Positions 1,783-10,000 of a DNA stretch of 10,118 bases are shown here, piece after piece. The DNA is taken from NCBI GenBank assembly GCA_023248505.1, contig JAHFEM010000027.1, positions 1 through 10,118 of the forward strand, given 5' to 3'. Both the position numbers and the translations under genes were made by a program. Position 1 is the first letter of the stretch. Each line of letters opens with the position of its first letter. The DNA comes from Nitrospirota bacterium (lineage in GTDB: Bacteria; Nitrospirota; Nitrospiria; SBBL01; Manganitrophaceae). The notes beneath the pieces are model-generated. The model searched no databases, was not told where the DNA came from, and saw only the letters and a program-made list of their open reading frames with translations.

Positions 1783-2712
1783 CTAGATATCCTTTCCTTT
1801 TTTCCCCACCAGAAGCGCGTAAAATTCTTTCGCCGACCATTCCGGCCGGCCCGGAACCATCGGGCATGATCTCTGGAGAAGAACGAGGTCGCCGTGTTCT
1901 TTCCGGATGTAAGACTCCTTATGCGCCAGGCTGTCCAGGTTGTAATCGATGGCGCTTTTCTCTGTAAAGTTGGTGTGCTCCCAAATGAAGTAGACGTGGT
2001 TCAAGCTGAGCGCCTTTTTTTCCTCCAGCCACTTTTTCGGCGCCACACACTTCCAGAGATAACCCGAATAGATGTCGGTGTCGTCGCAGCGCAGCGAGAT
2101 CTTGTGGTCTTTGTCGTCCTCCTTCAGCCAGATGCAGTAATCGAGGAGTCCGCCGACCAATCCCAGGCTGTCCGGATTTTGGGTGAATTGTGATCGGTGA
2201 CCCAGCAATCCCGTCACCGTGACCTCCAGTCCTCCCCAGCTCCCCTGAAATTCTTGACGGATTTTCATCCCTTTGTCGCGCGGAATGAGGATGGGGAGAG
2301 AGTCGGCTTCGTCGCCGTCGCCCAGCTGGGCGACGAAATACGGTTTATCGATCTCCTTTTCGGAATCCTCGAAATCCCAGGAGAAATCCCACGACGGACC
2401 CCAGAGATCGAATCCGAAGAAGAGCCACTTCTGAAGCGGATCGTTCCAGCGGGGTTTTGCCATGTCGGCTTTCTCTCGCCGGTCCCACCATCCCGGGGAC
2501 ATGAGGGCGCAGTGGAAGAGTGTTCCCTTCACCGTGACGAGCACCGGCTCTTTTAACCCTTTCATCCGGAGAAGTTTTTTTCGAAGGGCATCGACCGGTT
2601 CGGTTCCCTGAAAGGAGAGGTCCCACGGCTGCATCGGCTCTTCCAGGAAATCTTTATAAGGATCGATCCCTCTGAAGATTAAATAGTTGCGGGGGCCGAC
2701 ATGGACCTCCAT
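1783..2712 (-). CDS. Trp-rich protein of unknown family, second gene of the cluster
   Basis: I do not recognise this protein. From the ATG at 2710-2712 it has 309 residues, 14 of them Trp, clustered in residues 75-112 (GWW, KWLFFGFDLWG, WDFSWDF). There is no signal peptide or membrane segment. A strand-rich stretch around LPILIPRDKG to LEVTVTGLLGH (139-171) resembles an OB-like or beta-sandwich core, but that is only an impression. The start is doubtful. The ATG has a poor ribosome site (GGCCGGGAC), and the frame stays open and protein-like upstream (GPWPTAAEVKAAIHQEEVSV) to the end of the 155-aa gene, with no other start codon in the 74-base gap. The gene may therefore be the 3' part of a longer frame joined to the 155-aa gene. 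The ABM gene follows after 9 bases. Confidence 0.75.
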   Translation of the reverse strand: MEVHVGPRNYLIFRGIDPYKDFLEEPMQPWDLSFQGTEPVDALRKKLLRMKGLKEPVLVTVKGTLFHCALMSPGWWDRREKADMAKPRWNDPLQKWLFFGFDLWGPSWDFSWDFEDSEKEIDKPYFVAQLGDGDEADSLPILIPRDKGMKIRQEFQGSWGGLEVTVTGLLGHRSQFTQNPDSLGLVGGLLDYCIWLKEDDKDHKISLRCDDTDIYSGYLWKCVAPKKWLEEKKALSLNHVYFIWEHTNFTEKSAIDYNLDSLAHKESYIRKEHGDLVLLQRSCPMVPGRPEWSAKEFYALLVGKKGKDI

Positions 2713-2786
2713 GTCCCGGCCGACGGAAACCTCTTCTTGGTGGATGGCCGCTTTGACCTCAGCGGCAGTAGGCCACGGACCTTTGC

Positions 2787-3254
2787 CTAGTGCCGCTTCG
2801 AAGGGCGCGACGGGTCGTCGCCTCCGCCGGCGCGGACCCCGCTGATTTTGATGTCGCCGCTGATCTCCGCTTTTTTGATCTTCACCCCCGCGCCGGCGCT
2901 CAGGATGTCGTCGATCTGAAGCGACGCCCCCTTGATCTCCTCCAGATCGACCCCCGCCGCCGCGGCCGCTTCGGGGGCGTGTTGCCTGATCGCTTCGAGC
3001 ATTGCTTTGGCCCGTCGCAAGAGCTCCTCGTCGCCGGAGACGTCCGCCTTCGCCAAGTCTTCCTTCACGACGCTCTGCCGGGCCTCTGAGGCGGGGTCGG
3101 CCTCCAGCATGTCGATGTTGACGCGCCGATACTTGTCTTGGATAAAAGTTTTGACGCCTTCGTAGGCATCCTTCACCGCCTTCTCCGCCGTCGGCTTCAG
3201 TCCGGCCGACGCACCGGTGATCAGCGCCGTAATGATGATCGAGATGGGATCCAT
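2787..3254 (-). CDS. 155-aa orphan protein, helical N-terminus and Gly/Ile-rich beta-like tail
   Basis: The N-terminus, MDPISIIITALITGASAGLK followed by PTAEKAVKDAYEGVKTFI, is a hydrophobic then amphipathic helix pattern that I have seen in hypothetical bacterial proteins with large unknown neighbours; I cannot name a family. The middle (about 43-100) is helical, charged and Ala-rich. The tail (about 103-145) carries two similar Gly/Ile-rich strand-like units, LQIDDILSAGAGVKI and AEISGDIKISGVRAG, then GGGDDP. The ATG at 3252-3254 has AAGGAG seven bases upstream, and a strong promoter lies in front. After the tail the frame ends KRH and stop, while the -1 frame continues into protein-like sequence joined to the next gene. 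A shift at the CCCTTCGAA stretch would give one protein of about 490 residues. Coding status is secure; function unknown. Confidence 0.75.
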   Translation of the reverse strand: MDPISIIITALITGASAGLKPTAEKAVKDAYEGVKTFIQDKYRRVNIDMLEADPASEARQSVVKEDLAKADVSGDEELLRRAKAMLEAIRQHAPEAAAAAGVDLEEIKGASLQIDDILSAGAGVKIKKAEISGDIKISGVRAGGGDDPSRPSKRH

Positions 3255-3312
3255 CGGCTTTCTCCTTTCGTCGGGAACTCAGAGACTCGTTCTTCTCGGT
3301 GTTTGCCCCTCC

Positions 3313-3342
3313 TCTATAACCCTTTTTTAGTATGGATGTCAA
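3313..3342 (-). promoter_or_regulatory. sigma-70-like promoter of the orphan cluster
   Basis: On the minus strand a consensus -35 TTGACA (3337-3342) is followed after 17 bases by TTATAG (3314-3319), or after 18 by TATAGA (3313-3318). The spacer carries a run of six A. Predicted start near 3306 gives a leader of about 50 bases before the ATG at 3254. One of the best promoter matches in the window. Confidence 0.65.
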
Positions 3343-3505
3343 ATTGGAAAGGACGGTGAGGATCAACGTCCGCTCGATTGCGAATGCGCCGCCGAAGAAT
3401 GTCTTCATCGGCGCGGCGCGTGAAAGGGGAGAGTCCGGGAAGGAAGGAGGCCTTCGCTTTCCAAGAGAAACGTGACCGGCCCGTCATTGCGCCACGACCC
3501 TGCGC

Positions 3506-4912: not shown

Positions 4913-4941
4913 AAAGCCGCTCGGCAAAATGAGCGGCCTTT
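4913..4941. terminator. bidirectional terminator-like hairpin between convergent genes
   Basis: GCCGCTC (4916-4922) pairs with GAGCGGC (4931-4937) around an 8-base loop. It is flanked by AAA on the left and, after one C, TTT on the right, so each strand ends the stem with a short U-run. It sits directly against the cytochrome stop codon and downstream of the DAHP synthase, as a shared terminator should. The U-tracts are short. Confidence 0.5.
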
Positions 4942-6089
4942 CAGTCCTCGTCTCTGGCTTTTGAGGAGGGAGGCGGCGGAGGTTCATTCTTTCGGGCGGA
5001 TTCTTCGTCGAGGGTGAGGAGAAAATCGGCCAGGCGGTCCAGGGCGCCGTAGGTCAGCTTCTCCTTGAAATTCTTCGGCATGGCGTTATCGAAACCGGGA
5101 ACGATGAATCCGTCCGGGTTTAGGATCGACTCGATGACATACTCTTTCGGCGTCGTCGCCCGGACTTTCCCCTCCTTCAAGGCCTTTTGATACTCCGGCG
5201 ACTGGATCCGCCGCGCGGCGGCGGTCTTGAGGGTCAGCACCGGGCCGATTTTTCCGACCTGCGCGATCGGAACCGTCGGAATCGTGTGGCAGGCAAAACA
5301 GGCCATCTTCTCGATGATCACTTCCGGCGTCTCCTCGGCGAGACCGACCTTCGAAAGGTCCGCCGGAGAAGGGACGGAGGGGGCTTTCGTTTCCATCACG
5401 TCGCCGGCCGTTAATTTTCTCCCGAAATAATTTTCCCAATCTTGTTTTGCCGTGACCTTCGAGAGATCCCCTCGCGCGTCGGCGGCCTGCACGTAGGCCG
5501 CGATCGCCACCATTTCATAGTCGCTGAGCCCGACTTCCGGACGATTAATGACCGGCATGGGGCTGACCGTATCCTCCGTCTCCTGCAAGCCGAATCCTTC
5601 CACCACGTAGCAGCTCGGGCAGTAAATCGATTCGATTAAATACTCGCCGGCCGTTCGCGCGTGGGGCCGAATCCCAGTCTTCGGTTCCCCGGTTTCGGCG
5701 TATTTCAGAGCGGTTTTCTTGTAGCGCTCTTCCTGGATCCGCTCGCCGGAGCGGGCCGTCATCCCGATTAATTTCGGAAAGCGGGTCGGCCGCTGTCCTT
5801 CCAGAATCACATGGCAGGCGGGGCACTGGCCTCGGCCGACCGGCAGGTCCAGGTTCGGCTCGAATGCGGGAACGTGGCCGCCGAAGATGACCCGCTCGCC
5901 CACGGCGACCAATCTCTTCGCAGAGAGCGGATCGGCGTTCTCGACCGGCTTGGAGACGGGGGCGGAAGCGGCGCCGGGCGGGGCCGGCTTTTTCACCCCC
6001 GCTCTCGGTCCGAGTTCCCGAAACAAGACTAAAACCAAGAGGAGCAATAGCCCCAAAATAAGATGTACGATCGGTCTGCTTATCTTCAA
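4941..6089 (-). CDS. membrane-anchored c-type cytochrome with two heme domains and an extra CxxC
   Basis: The 382-residue protein begins with a short basic stretch and a hydrophobic segment (about 7-23, LILGLLLLLVLVLF) that is a signal anchor, then a Pro/Ala-rich linker. Two related cytochrome c domains follow. Domain 1 has CPACH (89-93) and a Met-ligand candidate in SPMPVINRP (177-183). Domain 2 has CFACH (264-268) and AMPKNF (336-341). Each has a YxIESI segment before the Met. Domain 2 then reads NPDGFIVPGF (324-333), close to the common class I NPSAYVVPGF, while domain 1 reads CPSCYVVEGF (157-166), with a CxxC lacking the heme-ligand His. It probably carries electrons at the periplasmic face. 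The tail is Pro-rich and charged. The start is TTG (complement of 6087-6089) with only a GGGGA ribosome site; it is chosen because it gives a complete signal anchor. A weak promoter is possible: TTGAAA (6154-6159) and TACCCT (6131-6136), 17 bases apart. Confidence 0.88.
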   Translation of the reverse strand: MKISRPIVHLILGLLLLLVLVLFRELGPRAGVKKPAPPGAASAPVSKPVENADPLSAKRLVAVGERVIFGGHVPAFEPNLDLPVGRGQCPACHVILEGQRPTRFPKLIGMTARSGERIQEERYKKTALKYAETGEPKTGIRPHARTAGEYLIESIYCPSCYVVEGFGLQETEDTVSPMPVINRPEVGLSDYEMVAIAAYVQAADARGDLSKVTAKQDWENYFGRKLTAGDVMETKAPSVPSPADLSKVGLAEETPEVIIEKMACFACHTIPTVPIAQVGKIGPVLTLKTAAARRIQSPEYQKALKEGKVRATTPKEYVIESILNPDGFIVPGFDNAMPKNFKEKLTYGALDRLADFLLTLDEESARKNEPPPPPSSKARDED

Positions 6090-7795: not shown

Positions 7796-7859
7796 CGACC
7801 GTTAGATGCTGCGGCGTCGGAGCGCAATGTTTTTACATTCTTTATTCGGCGGGTGATGG

Positions 7860-9539
7860 ATGAAGTCCGTTGGGCAATACCAAATCATCGAAAAGGTCGG
7901 TGAGGGAGGAATGGCGAGTGTCTATAGAGGCATTCAGCCTTCTTTGAACCGGTCTGTTGCGATTAAGTTCCTCTCTCATAAGGTGGTCGGAGATAAATCG
8001 ATTGTCGAGCGTTTCAATCGAGAGTCTCTGATTATCGCGCGCCTTTCTCATCCCAACATCATCCACGTCATCGACCGCGGCATCTCCGACGAAGGGATGC
8101 CCTACTTTGTCATGGATTTCGTGGAAGGGACCAATCTCGCGGTTCTGATGAAAGAGGTCGGATTTGATCTCAACCGGAAGCTCGACATTCTCGTCCAGGT
8201 CTGCAAGGGGCTTTCCTATGCCCATAAAAATGGCGTGATCCATCGGGACATCAAACCGGCCAATATTCTGATCGACAAAGAGGGGAATGCCTTGGTGACC
8301 GATTTTGGCATTGCCCAGTTTTATGAAGAGGGGAAGGGTGAAGACGAACTGACAAAAGAGGGAATCGTGATGGGGACCTTCGCCTATATGTCCCCGGAGC
8401 AGAAGAGCGGATCGAAAAATGTCACCGCTTCGAGCGATCTCTATTCCCTCGGCGTGATGATGTATCTGCTGTTTGCAGGGAGGAAGCCGGAGGGGCGCTT
8501 TAAACTTCCATCGGAGCACAATGCAAGTCTTCCGGAGGGTCTCGATGGGGTCGTCGTAAAATGCCTTGAAACCGATCCGAACGACCGCTACAAATCGGCG
8601 GATGAAGTTAAAAATCACCTTTTGGAGCTTCTCCAGGGAGCGCATCTTCGGGATACCCAGAAGGAACGGGCCCTCGAGAGTGTCTCGAAAACAGAGGATC
8701 GTTTTGTCCTTCTGGATGTGATCAAAGAGACCCCATACGGCGGTGTCTATCTTTTCCAAGACAAAACCGATAATCAATTCATGATCGTAAAGAAATGCAA
8801 GAGCAGCAGGGAGCATCCGAACTATAAAAAACTCATGACCACGCTGAAGCATCCGAACATCGTCAATCTCTATGGCGTTTCCGAGGAACGGGAGACGCTC
8901 ACCATTGTCATGGAATATATCGGCGGGGGAAGTCTCAAGGAGCGGATCGTCCAAAAACATGCCTGGCAAGAGACGCTCCAAATCATCCGGGTGATTTGTG
9001 AAGCGCTGAACTTTGCCCATCGGAATCAGGTCATCCATGGGAACCTTCGGCCGAGCAATGTTTTGATCGACGAATCGGGAAAGGTGAAACTTTCCGATTT
9101 CGGATTGGAGGAGCATTATGCCCGGTCGGGAAACGAGGTGAACTGGTACAGTCCTCCCGGTGAAAAGAGAACGGCGCAGGCCGATATCTATGCGGTGGGT
9201 GCGATTGTTTATGAGATGATCGCAGGAACGCCTCCCCTCTGGAAGGAGGGGAAACCGGCGCCGCACGCGGAGTTTAAACTTCTTCCCTGGGATTTGTGGC
9301 CGATGGTGTCGAAAATGATTTCACGCCAACGGGAAAACCGCTATCGGAACTTCGATGAGGTGATTCACGCGATTGACGCCCTTGTCCTGGAAGCGGGAAA
9401 AGCCAAGCAAAAAAAAGGGAACATTCTTCTCTATCTCATCGTTGCGCTGACGGCCCTCCTCGTCGGCGTCTATCTCGCCTGGAATTTTGTCCCCGCAATA
9501 AAAACCTATCTCGAAGAGATTCTTCGCTTATTCCGCTAA
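7860..9539 (+). CDS. tandem Ser/Thr kinase-pseudokinase with C-terminal membrane anchor
   Basis: The 559-residue protein has two Hanks-type kinase domains. Domain 1 (about 7-258) has every catalytic landmark: GEGGMASV (14-21), VAIK with K36, E55, HRDIKPAN (D130, N135), DFG (148-150), SPE (178-180), D193 and R243, so it should phosphorylate Ser/Thr. Domain 2 (about 281-508) keeps the fold: VKK near 310, HPNIV (331-335), MEYIGGGSL, NVLI, SDFG (412-415), D442, R494. However, it has no Gly-rich loop (ETPYGG instead), HGN in place of HRD (393-395, catalytic Asp lost) and SPPGE instead of APE, so it is a pseudokinase. A transmembrane helix (about 520-543) follows a Lys-rich stretch, leaving a 16-residue tail. 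Both kinase domains should lie in the cytosol. A stop codon three bases upstream of the ATG fixes the start; the ribosome site (GGCGGG) is weak. No PASTA or other sensor domain is present. Confidence 0.93.
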   Translation: MKSVGQYQIIEKVGEGGMASVYRGIQPSLNRSVAIKFLSHKVVGDKSIVERFNRESLIIARLSHPNIIHVIDRGISDEGMPYFVMDFVEGTNLAVLMKEVGFDLNRKLDILVQVCKGLSYAHKNGVIHRDIKPANILIDKEGNALVTDFGIAQFYEEGKGEDELTKEGIVMGTFAYMSPEQKSGSKNVTASSDLYSLGVMMYLLFAGRKPEGRFKLPSEHNASLPEGLDGVVVKCLETDPNDRYKSADEVKNHLLELLQGAHLRDTQKERALESVSKTEDRFVLLDVIKETPYGGVYLFQDKTDNQFMIVKKCKSSREHPNYKKLMTTLKHPNIVNLYGVSEERETLTIVMEYIGGGSLKERIVQKHAWQETLQIIRVICEALNFAHRNQVIHGNLRPSNVLIDESGKVKLSDFGLEEHYARSGNEVNWYSPPGEKRTAQADIYAVGAIVYEMIAGTPPLWKEGKPAPHAEFKLLPWDLWPMVSKMISRQRENRYRNFDEVIHAIDALVLEAGKAKQKKGNILLYLIVALTALLVGVYLAWNFVPAIKTYLEEILRLFR

Positions 9540-9687: not shown

Positions 9688-9924
9688 CTACCGTCCCTTG
9701 CCGAAGACCTCTATCGCCAGCGGGATAGTCGTGATCGCTCCCACCATCACCAGGGTCCATCCGATCGCTTTCCGCTGGTTCAGGTTGAATTTGTCGGCGA
9801 GCAAAAACCCAACCCCCGCGCCGAGCATCGCGCGCGTTCCGGCGATGAGCGCCATCTCCGGCAATGTGACTTCCGCTGTTTTTTGCATGCCGCCACTTTT
9901 TAAAGTAGATAGTAGGTTCTTCAT
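9688..9924 (-). CDS. small two-helix membrane protein of unknown function
   Basis: The 78-residue protein has a short polar N-terminus, then two hydrophobic helices at about 24-44 (MALIAGTRAMLGAGVGFLLAD) and 55-74 (IGWTLVMVGAITTIPLAIEVF), joined by the polar loop KFNLNQRKA, and a basic end GKGR. The Gly-rich first helix suggests close helix packing. I know similar unnamed proteins by style only and assign no function. A GTG three codons upstream (9931-9933) is in frame, but GAGGGAG lies eight bases before the ATG at 9922-9924 and overlaps that GTG, so the ATG is chosen. A hairpin CAGAAGA...TCTTCTG (9660-9683) lies just past the stop codon without a U-run. Confidence 0.75.
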   Translation of the reverse strand: MKNLLSTLKSGGMQKTAEVTLPEMALIAGTRAMLGAGVGFLLADKFNLNQRKAIGWTLVMVGAITTIPLAIEVFGKGR

Positions 9925-10000
9925 CCGGTTCACTCCCTCAAGATTGTTTTATTGGGTGTCGTATACCGTAAAGCAGAGTGATCATTCCTTCCCCTCTCCT

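Follow-up and report, generated by a model that had tools for sequence, protein, structure and literature searches.

A family of bacterial membrane-anchored kinases with an HGN pseudokinase domain as a candidate in-chain regulator

A gene from a Nitrospirota bacterium encodes an active-type kinase domain, a pseudokinase domain and a C-terminal membrane anchor in a single polypeptide. The gene lies at positions 7860–9539 (+) of the window, by which we mean the whole stretch of DNA analysed (10,118 nucleotides), and it is an intact open reading frame of 559 amino acids with an ATG start. We favour, at somewhat better than even confidence, the reading that the product is a membrane-tethered tandem kinase, in which an ATP-binding but non-catalytic domain 2 sets the activity or the dimerisation of domain 1. 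A broader proposal is held more tentatively and falls a little short of an even call. It takes the protein as one member of a multi-phylum family that uses an HGN pseudokinase for in-chain allosteric control, as an order-reversed counterpart of the JH1/JH2 pair of the JAK kinases, with an independently acquired HGN motif and with FHA and second-messenger outputs.

Layout of the protein and its active-type domain

The Pfam Pkinase profile covers two stretches of the protein, with 278.3 bits for the entire chain. When matched separately in a genome scan, the two domains score 159.6 and 120.5 bits, both above the cut-off. Domain 1 (7875–8633, +; about residues 6–258) is a PknB-like, active-type Hanks kinase. 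It is followed by an interdomain linker (8634–8699, +; residues 259–280) and by domain 2, the pseudokinase (8700–9359, +; about residues 281–500), where HGN replaces HRD at 9036–9044 (+; residues 393–395). The most hydrophobic 19-residue segment, residues 522–540 (9423–9479, +), has a mean hydropathy of 2.63 and is the predicted C-terminal transmembrane helix, after which the chain continues for 19 residues. A hydrophobic stretch C-terminal to domain 2 is present in 124 of 137 family sequences at a threshold of 1.6, with some duplicates among the 137. The positive-inside rule relates a Lys-rich flank of a transmembrane helix to the cytoplasmic side, and the Lys-rich stretch N-terminal of this helix would accordingly place both kinase domains in the cytoplasm. 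The original prediction of a kinase, a pseudokinase and a C-terminal anchor in one chain is borne out by the two Pfam matches, the motif pattern and the hydropathy. It had also noted that no other sensor domain is present, and neither Pfam nor NCBIfam identified one in the 559 residues.

AlphaFold2 modelled kinase secondary structure in both domains of the protein (pLDDT 86.1, pTM 0.83). Models of two divergent members, whose input alignments have 5 rows in common, reached a pTM of 0.82–0.83, which suggests that the two domains have a defined arrangement. Fold searches returned single kinase domains among the matches listed (best 50 each), and these aligned mostly to domain 1. A 474-aa antisense ORF (7842–9266, −) spans most of the kinase gene; it has no Pfam match and is probably no more than a shadow of that gene's frame.

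Relatives were collected by a search of 5.8 billion proteins, which gave at least 7998 matches, ordinary single-domain kinases included. The best 120 of these cover 88–100% of the query. Starting from a divergent member (L144), another search contributed a further best 120, of which 108 were new. The alignment holds 228 two-domain proteins, the window's among them, and 196 remain at <90% identity. Both searches rank the best matches first, so distant members, in which an HRD motif might survive in domain 2, would lie outside this sample.

Domain 1 carries K36, E55, H128-R129-D130, N135, D148-F149-G150, P179-E180 and D193. K36, E55, D130, N135, D148 and D193 are each identical in 196/196 of the non-redundant relatives, and the APE-type E180 is present in 120/120. 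The catalytic residues listed for this domain in the original prediction (K36, E55, HRD130, DFG and D193) are therefore all in place. Domain 1 thus has every feature by which a Hanks-type Ser/Thr kinase is recognised (Lys, Glu, HRDxKPxN, DFG, the APE-type Glu and the F-helix Asp), and its HRDIKPAN motif is what we take to be a Ser/Thr kinase signature. Two activation-loop positions are phosphorylatable residues in much of the family: T165 is Thr in 155/196 members, and T173 is Thr in 176/196 and Ser in the other 20/196. From this conservation, domain 1 would be expected to be catalytically competent.

Nucleotide site and ancestry of domain 2

The second domain carries H393-G394-N395, N400, DFG at 413–415, D442 and R494. 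The GxGxxG motif is absent; KETPYGG stands at 289–295, with Gly left only at the third Gly position, and the first two glycines of the loop are replaced in the 110-row alignment. SPPGE stands where APE is expected, although the Glu at that position (435) is E in 77/110 rows, making this loss less clear-cut than the others. At the α-C Glu position the window protein has Tyr, and 125/196 members have E. A pseudokinase has lost at least one of the β3 Lys, the HRD Asp and the DFG Asp; in the window's domain 2 the HRD Asp is Asn. All the motif losses and retentions originally described for this domain (HGN, no Gly-rich loop, a broken APE, DFG and the C-lobe Asp and Arg kept) were found, the last two being D442 and R494. 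The kept β3 Lys (K311) and the Tyr at the α-C Glu position were not among the features listed there.

This loss is a property of the family. Among the 196 non-redundant members the motif is HGN in 171, HGH in 12, HGD in 8, HGS in 3, HAN in 1 and HNN in 1, and the catalytic Asp is missing from 188/196, with N, H or S in its place. HRD does not occur in domain 2 of any of the 196. An intact HRD in homologues, or a failure of domain 2 to model as a kinase, had been named in advance as grounds for abandoning the pseudokinase assignment, and the assignment survives on both counts so far as the 196 relatives and the models reach. The 12 HGH members have DDL...AHFY or close variants where most have EHY...NWY. 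They form a second putative pseudokinase subfamily, degraded in a different way. The most degraded domain 2 among the fetched loci is that of G489 (L152; outside the 196-row set), which has HGS (S at position 395), a Lys for the catalytic-loop Asn at position 400, and a retained DFG.

Against this background the nucleotide site stands out. ATP and the metal are held in protein kinases by the β3 Lys, the catalytic-loop Asn and the DFG Asp, and the HRD Asp serves as catalytic base. The β3 Lys K311 is present in 195/196 relatives (R in the one exception), and N400, D413 and D442 are each present in 196/196. Only 15 of the 220 columns of domain 2 hold a single residue in ≥98% of rows, and they include K311, H393, G394, N400, D413, F414 and D442. 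Since the β3 Lys, the catalytic-loop Asn and the DFG Asp are about as fixed here as in domain 1, selection seems to have retained nucleotide binding and discarded phosphotransfer. Residues for ATP and metal that are fixed, a base that is gone and a Gly-rich loop that is degraded form the pattern expected of a nucleotide-bound, non-catalytic regulatory domain.

The retention of K311, N400 and D413 would also suit a domain 2 that is not dead and carries out weak phosphotransfer or another ATP-dependent chemistry such as AMPylation; SelO and SidJ are described as kinase folds with other chemistries (PMC12599244). We regard this as unlikely. The 8/196 members with HGD, one example being the copy in G026 (L142), have the catalytic position occupied by Asp, and some of these domains could be active. 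Their history was followed on a FastTree of the 196 rows built without the motif columns, on which HGD needs 6 changes, 4 of them forced by starred branches. Seven of the eight HGD rows fall in a 16-row group together with 9 HGN rows, and this nesting hints that the Asp is derived, which speaks against residual catalysis. So do the replaced first two glycines of the loop (110 rows) and the N, H or S at the catalytic position in 188/196 members.

The two domains appear to have a common history. A tree of 29 domain 1, 29 domain 2 and 50 other bacterial kinase domains (quick search without bootstrap) places domain 1 and domain 2 in one group each, with SH-aLRT values of 97 and 100. Each domain being one group, the pairing probably arose once, and both domains would have been inherited together since. 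A long branch leads to domain 2 in this 108-domain tree, which gives no answer on whether domain 2 descends from domain 1. The mean pairwise identity of domain 2 is lower (51% vs 62% for domain 1; 109 clusters), and this faster divergence, together with the further degraded copy in G489, is what one would see if domain 2 were a functionless, decaying kinase duplicate. That explanation is very improbable. Both domains stand together in the 228 aligned proteins, the tree supports a single origin and the nucleotide-site residues are near-invariant; these three observations point to purifying selection and contradict decay. The linker is conserved as well, with G260 and H262 each in 195/196 members.

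Occurrence and gene neighbourhood

The family is sparse and patchy across Nitrospirota, Thermodesulfobacteriota and gammaproteobacteria, with phylum assignments taken from the names of the matched records. Members are assigned to Nitrospira defluvii, Deferrisoma camini, Hahella sp. KA22 and Oleiphilus messinensis. Three genome sets were scanned, with a full two-domain match defined as E ≤1e-100 (1e-90 for the third set). Full matches occur in 6/395 genomes of Nitrospirota, 9/395 in the phylum of a Desulfobacterales MAG and 3/185 in the class of the L039 genome, which is recorded as Alteromonadaceae. The seed genome is part of each set, and scoring was limited to 3 first-look candidates per genome (7 in the third set), so the counts are rough and probably low. 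One genome (G016) has the protein and is absent from the matches of the Nitrospirota set; it either fell outside the sample or escaped detection. In the genus to which the window belongs, the protein is present in G000 and G004, and no full-length match was found in G001, G002, G003 or G005.

A contig scan, checked by profile at its best 80 loci, showed a pair of kinase regions sharing one open frame in L038 and L039 alone; the first motif there is HRD or HCD, and the second is HGN. One further locus, L079, matched the query over residues 4–502 and was rejected as a tandem kinase on having one kinase domain by profiles. No clear case of a free-standing HGN pseudokinase was found among 31 matches to domain 2 alone, all of which were excluded from the 228-row alignment. 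Twelve of the 31 (P0121–P0132) have HGN or, in two cases, a motif close to it (HAN and HKN); judged by eye, nine of them start in domain 1 and the other three in domain 2, and they were taken as fragments rather than free pseudokinases. A motif search of the other 19 found HRD in 13 and no motif in 6.

Upstream of the kinase gene the window has a divergent gene of 285 aa, and on the downstream side a reverse-strand ORF of 81 aa. After the kinase gene 579 bases of contig remain, and neither an FHA nor a PP2C gene lies within the window; the genome (72% complete) has 4 FHA matches and 1 PP2C match elsewhere. Neighbouring genes of these two types were identified in the other loci by six-frame reading and by profile search (L150 and L151 are GC-rich). 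An FHA gene lies within 2 kb of the kinase in 7/19 family genomes (G021, G184, G433, G489, G588, G635 and G706) and a PP2C gene in 3/19 (G433, G588 and G635). Random placement, a null that disregards the general tendency of FHA genes to cluster with kinases, expects 0.15 genomes for FHA (P = 6e-11) and 0.05 for PP2C (P = 2e-5). As G433 and G635 are close kin, the FHA association amounts to 6 independent cases at most (P for ≥6, 4e-9). The remaining 12/19 genomes, the window's included, are without FHA inside 2 kb, and some of their contigs are short. No other neighbour cluster was found in more than 3 of the 19 compared loci, the window included, with genes picked crudely. Three of ten neighbours scanned are FHA fusions: FHA-GGDEF in L140 and L147 and cyclase-FHA in L143.

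The kinase, a double-FHA protein and a PP2C phosphatase are consecutive on the same strand in L150 and L151 (G635 and G433), and this gene row is a compact write/read/erase module. In L148 (G588) a stop codon interrupts the kinase reading frame within the C-lobe of domain 1, from either true decay or a sequencing error, and the adjacent FHA and PP2C genes are still there.

FHA domains near 7/19 of the kinases can also be accommodated by a scaffold without allostery, in which domain 2 would be phosphorylated by domain 1 and would act at the membrane as a docking site that recruits FHA proteins or substrates. Family-specific residues that could serve this role stand in the domain 2 activation segment (H419 in 108/110 rows, Y420 in 106, N428 in 108 and W429 in 106), and the MviN pseudokinase, which recruits FhaA in mycobacteria, is a precedent (PMC12599244). 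We consider this possible, at clearly less than even probability. MviN is described as deficient in ATP and Mg binding (PMC12599244), and a pure scaffold has no need of the β3 Lys, catalytic-loop Asn and DFG Asp that are near-invariant here. The original prediction had proposed that domain 2 may act as a built-in sensor or scaffold; the conservation of the ATP- and metal-binding residues makes a regulatory domain with bound nucleotide likelier than a bare scaffold.

Domain 2 is thus most likely an ATP-binding intramolecular regulator of domain 1. By this mechanism domain 1 would be a catalytically competent PknB-type Ser/Thr kinase, and domain 2 would bind ATP and metal without transferring phosphate. 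The conserved linker would help domain 2 to dock onto domain 1, and domain 2 would control the activity or dimerisation of its partner, as JH2 does for JH1 (by analogy, not descent). FHA effectors are probably the output in members with FHA genes nearby, where FHA proteins would recognise phosphothreonine; some of these proteins also carry a GGDEF or a nucleotide-cyclase domain. The signal could be reset by PP2C phosphatases in members that have them close to the kinase.

Several other features of the window were noted. A gene for a protein with two CBS domains by Pfam lies at 656–1105 (−), and relatives of it occur near the kinase in L138 (6043–6522, −) and L139 (18145–18624, −), at differing distances. 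Two ORFs overlap in different frames, one of 541 aa (1783–3408, −) and one of 155 aa (2787–3254, −), both without a Pfam match; the N-terminal part of the 541-aa ORF may be an out-of-frame reading of the 155-aa ORF. The product of the ORF at 4941–6089 (−) has a hydrophobic stretch in its N-terminal part and matches cytochrome c in Pfam; its match to SoxX is under the cut-off. Next to the kinase gene there is a small hydrophobic ORF both in the window (9688–9933, −) and in L138 (7388–7660, −), a relative with 79% identity, on opposite sides of the gene; the two products look similar by eye.

Relation to known kinases and pseudokinases

The JAK proteins are tyrosine kinases with the layout FERM-SH2-JH2-JH1, and Pfam identified neither FERM nor SH2 in the window protein. 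The JH2 pseudokinases of JAKs carry an HGN motif, retain the β3 Lys, which is paired with the DxG Asp, and have ATP bound; they are without the α-C Glu (Ala there) and have DPG instead of DFG (PMC6287396). The window protein shares with them a kinase and an HGN pseudokinase in one chain, the kept β3 Lys and DxG Asp, and the missing α-C Glu, which is Tyr here (PMC6287396). Since the JH2 domains also have HGN, the likeness to JAKs is closer than was stated in the original prediction. The differences are that the kinase precedes the pseudokinase, that DFG is present where JH2 has DPG, that domain 1 has the Ser/Thr-type HRDIKPAN, that the protein has its own transmembrane helix, and that the family retains the α-C Glu in most (125/196) members. 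As our tree held only bacterial kinases, we infer that the resemblance to the JAK pair is probably due to convergence.

The PASTA kinases PknB and StkP are similar in the sequence and fold of domain 1 and in the single transmembrane helix after the cytoplasmic part. The window protein differs from them in having a second kinase domain instead of PASTA repeats and almost no extracytoplasmic part. Pfam detected no PASTA repeats in it, and the NF033483 score (396.6 bits) is below the 450-bit cut-off. Among profiles of anti-phage kinases, NCBIfam MAD6 scores 267.3 bits vs a 460-bit cut-off, and the PADLOC PD-T4-6 and MAD6 models, which have no cut-off, match mainly via the kinase domain and are unspecific. 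Wheat Yr15 has a similar kinase and pseudokinase in tandem, and such plant proteins act in disease resistance (PMC6170490).

The bacterial pseudokinase families ActPs1–3, GLW, CP1, DYD and DLHK are described as Ser/Thr kinase-like, several with a C-terminal transmembrane segment (PMC12599244). ActPs2 has Arg for the β3 Lys, Asn for the HRD Asp and mostly a DFG deletion; the window's domain 2 shares the Asp-to-Asn change and differs in its intact K311 and DFG 413–415. The other described families lose all three motifs or the ATP/metal motifs, and some CP1 members have one degraded motif (PMC12599244). Compared by these descriptions, the loss of HRD alone and the fusion to an active-type kinase set the present family apart. 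The words 'tandem', 'dual' and 'HGN' are absent from the available text of that review, and the 42-family atlas that it cites may group the family (PMC12599244). A bacterial kinase–pseudokinase tandem family is not described in the literature searched (titles and abstract openings, with subscription journals and bioRxiv mostly outside the search); the pairing of a kinase with a pseudokinase is itself already known.

Bacterial pseudokinases are largely unexplored by experiment, and most of their families are without several catalytic motifs (PMC12599244, 2025). The present family offers a compact system, in which one chain joins an active-type kinase to a pseudokinase whose ATP-site residues are intact, and it includes natural HGN, HGH, HGS and HGD variants. 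It makes testable the questions of why pseudokinases hold on to ATP binding after losing catalysis and whether the HGN solution recurs.
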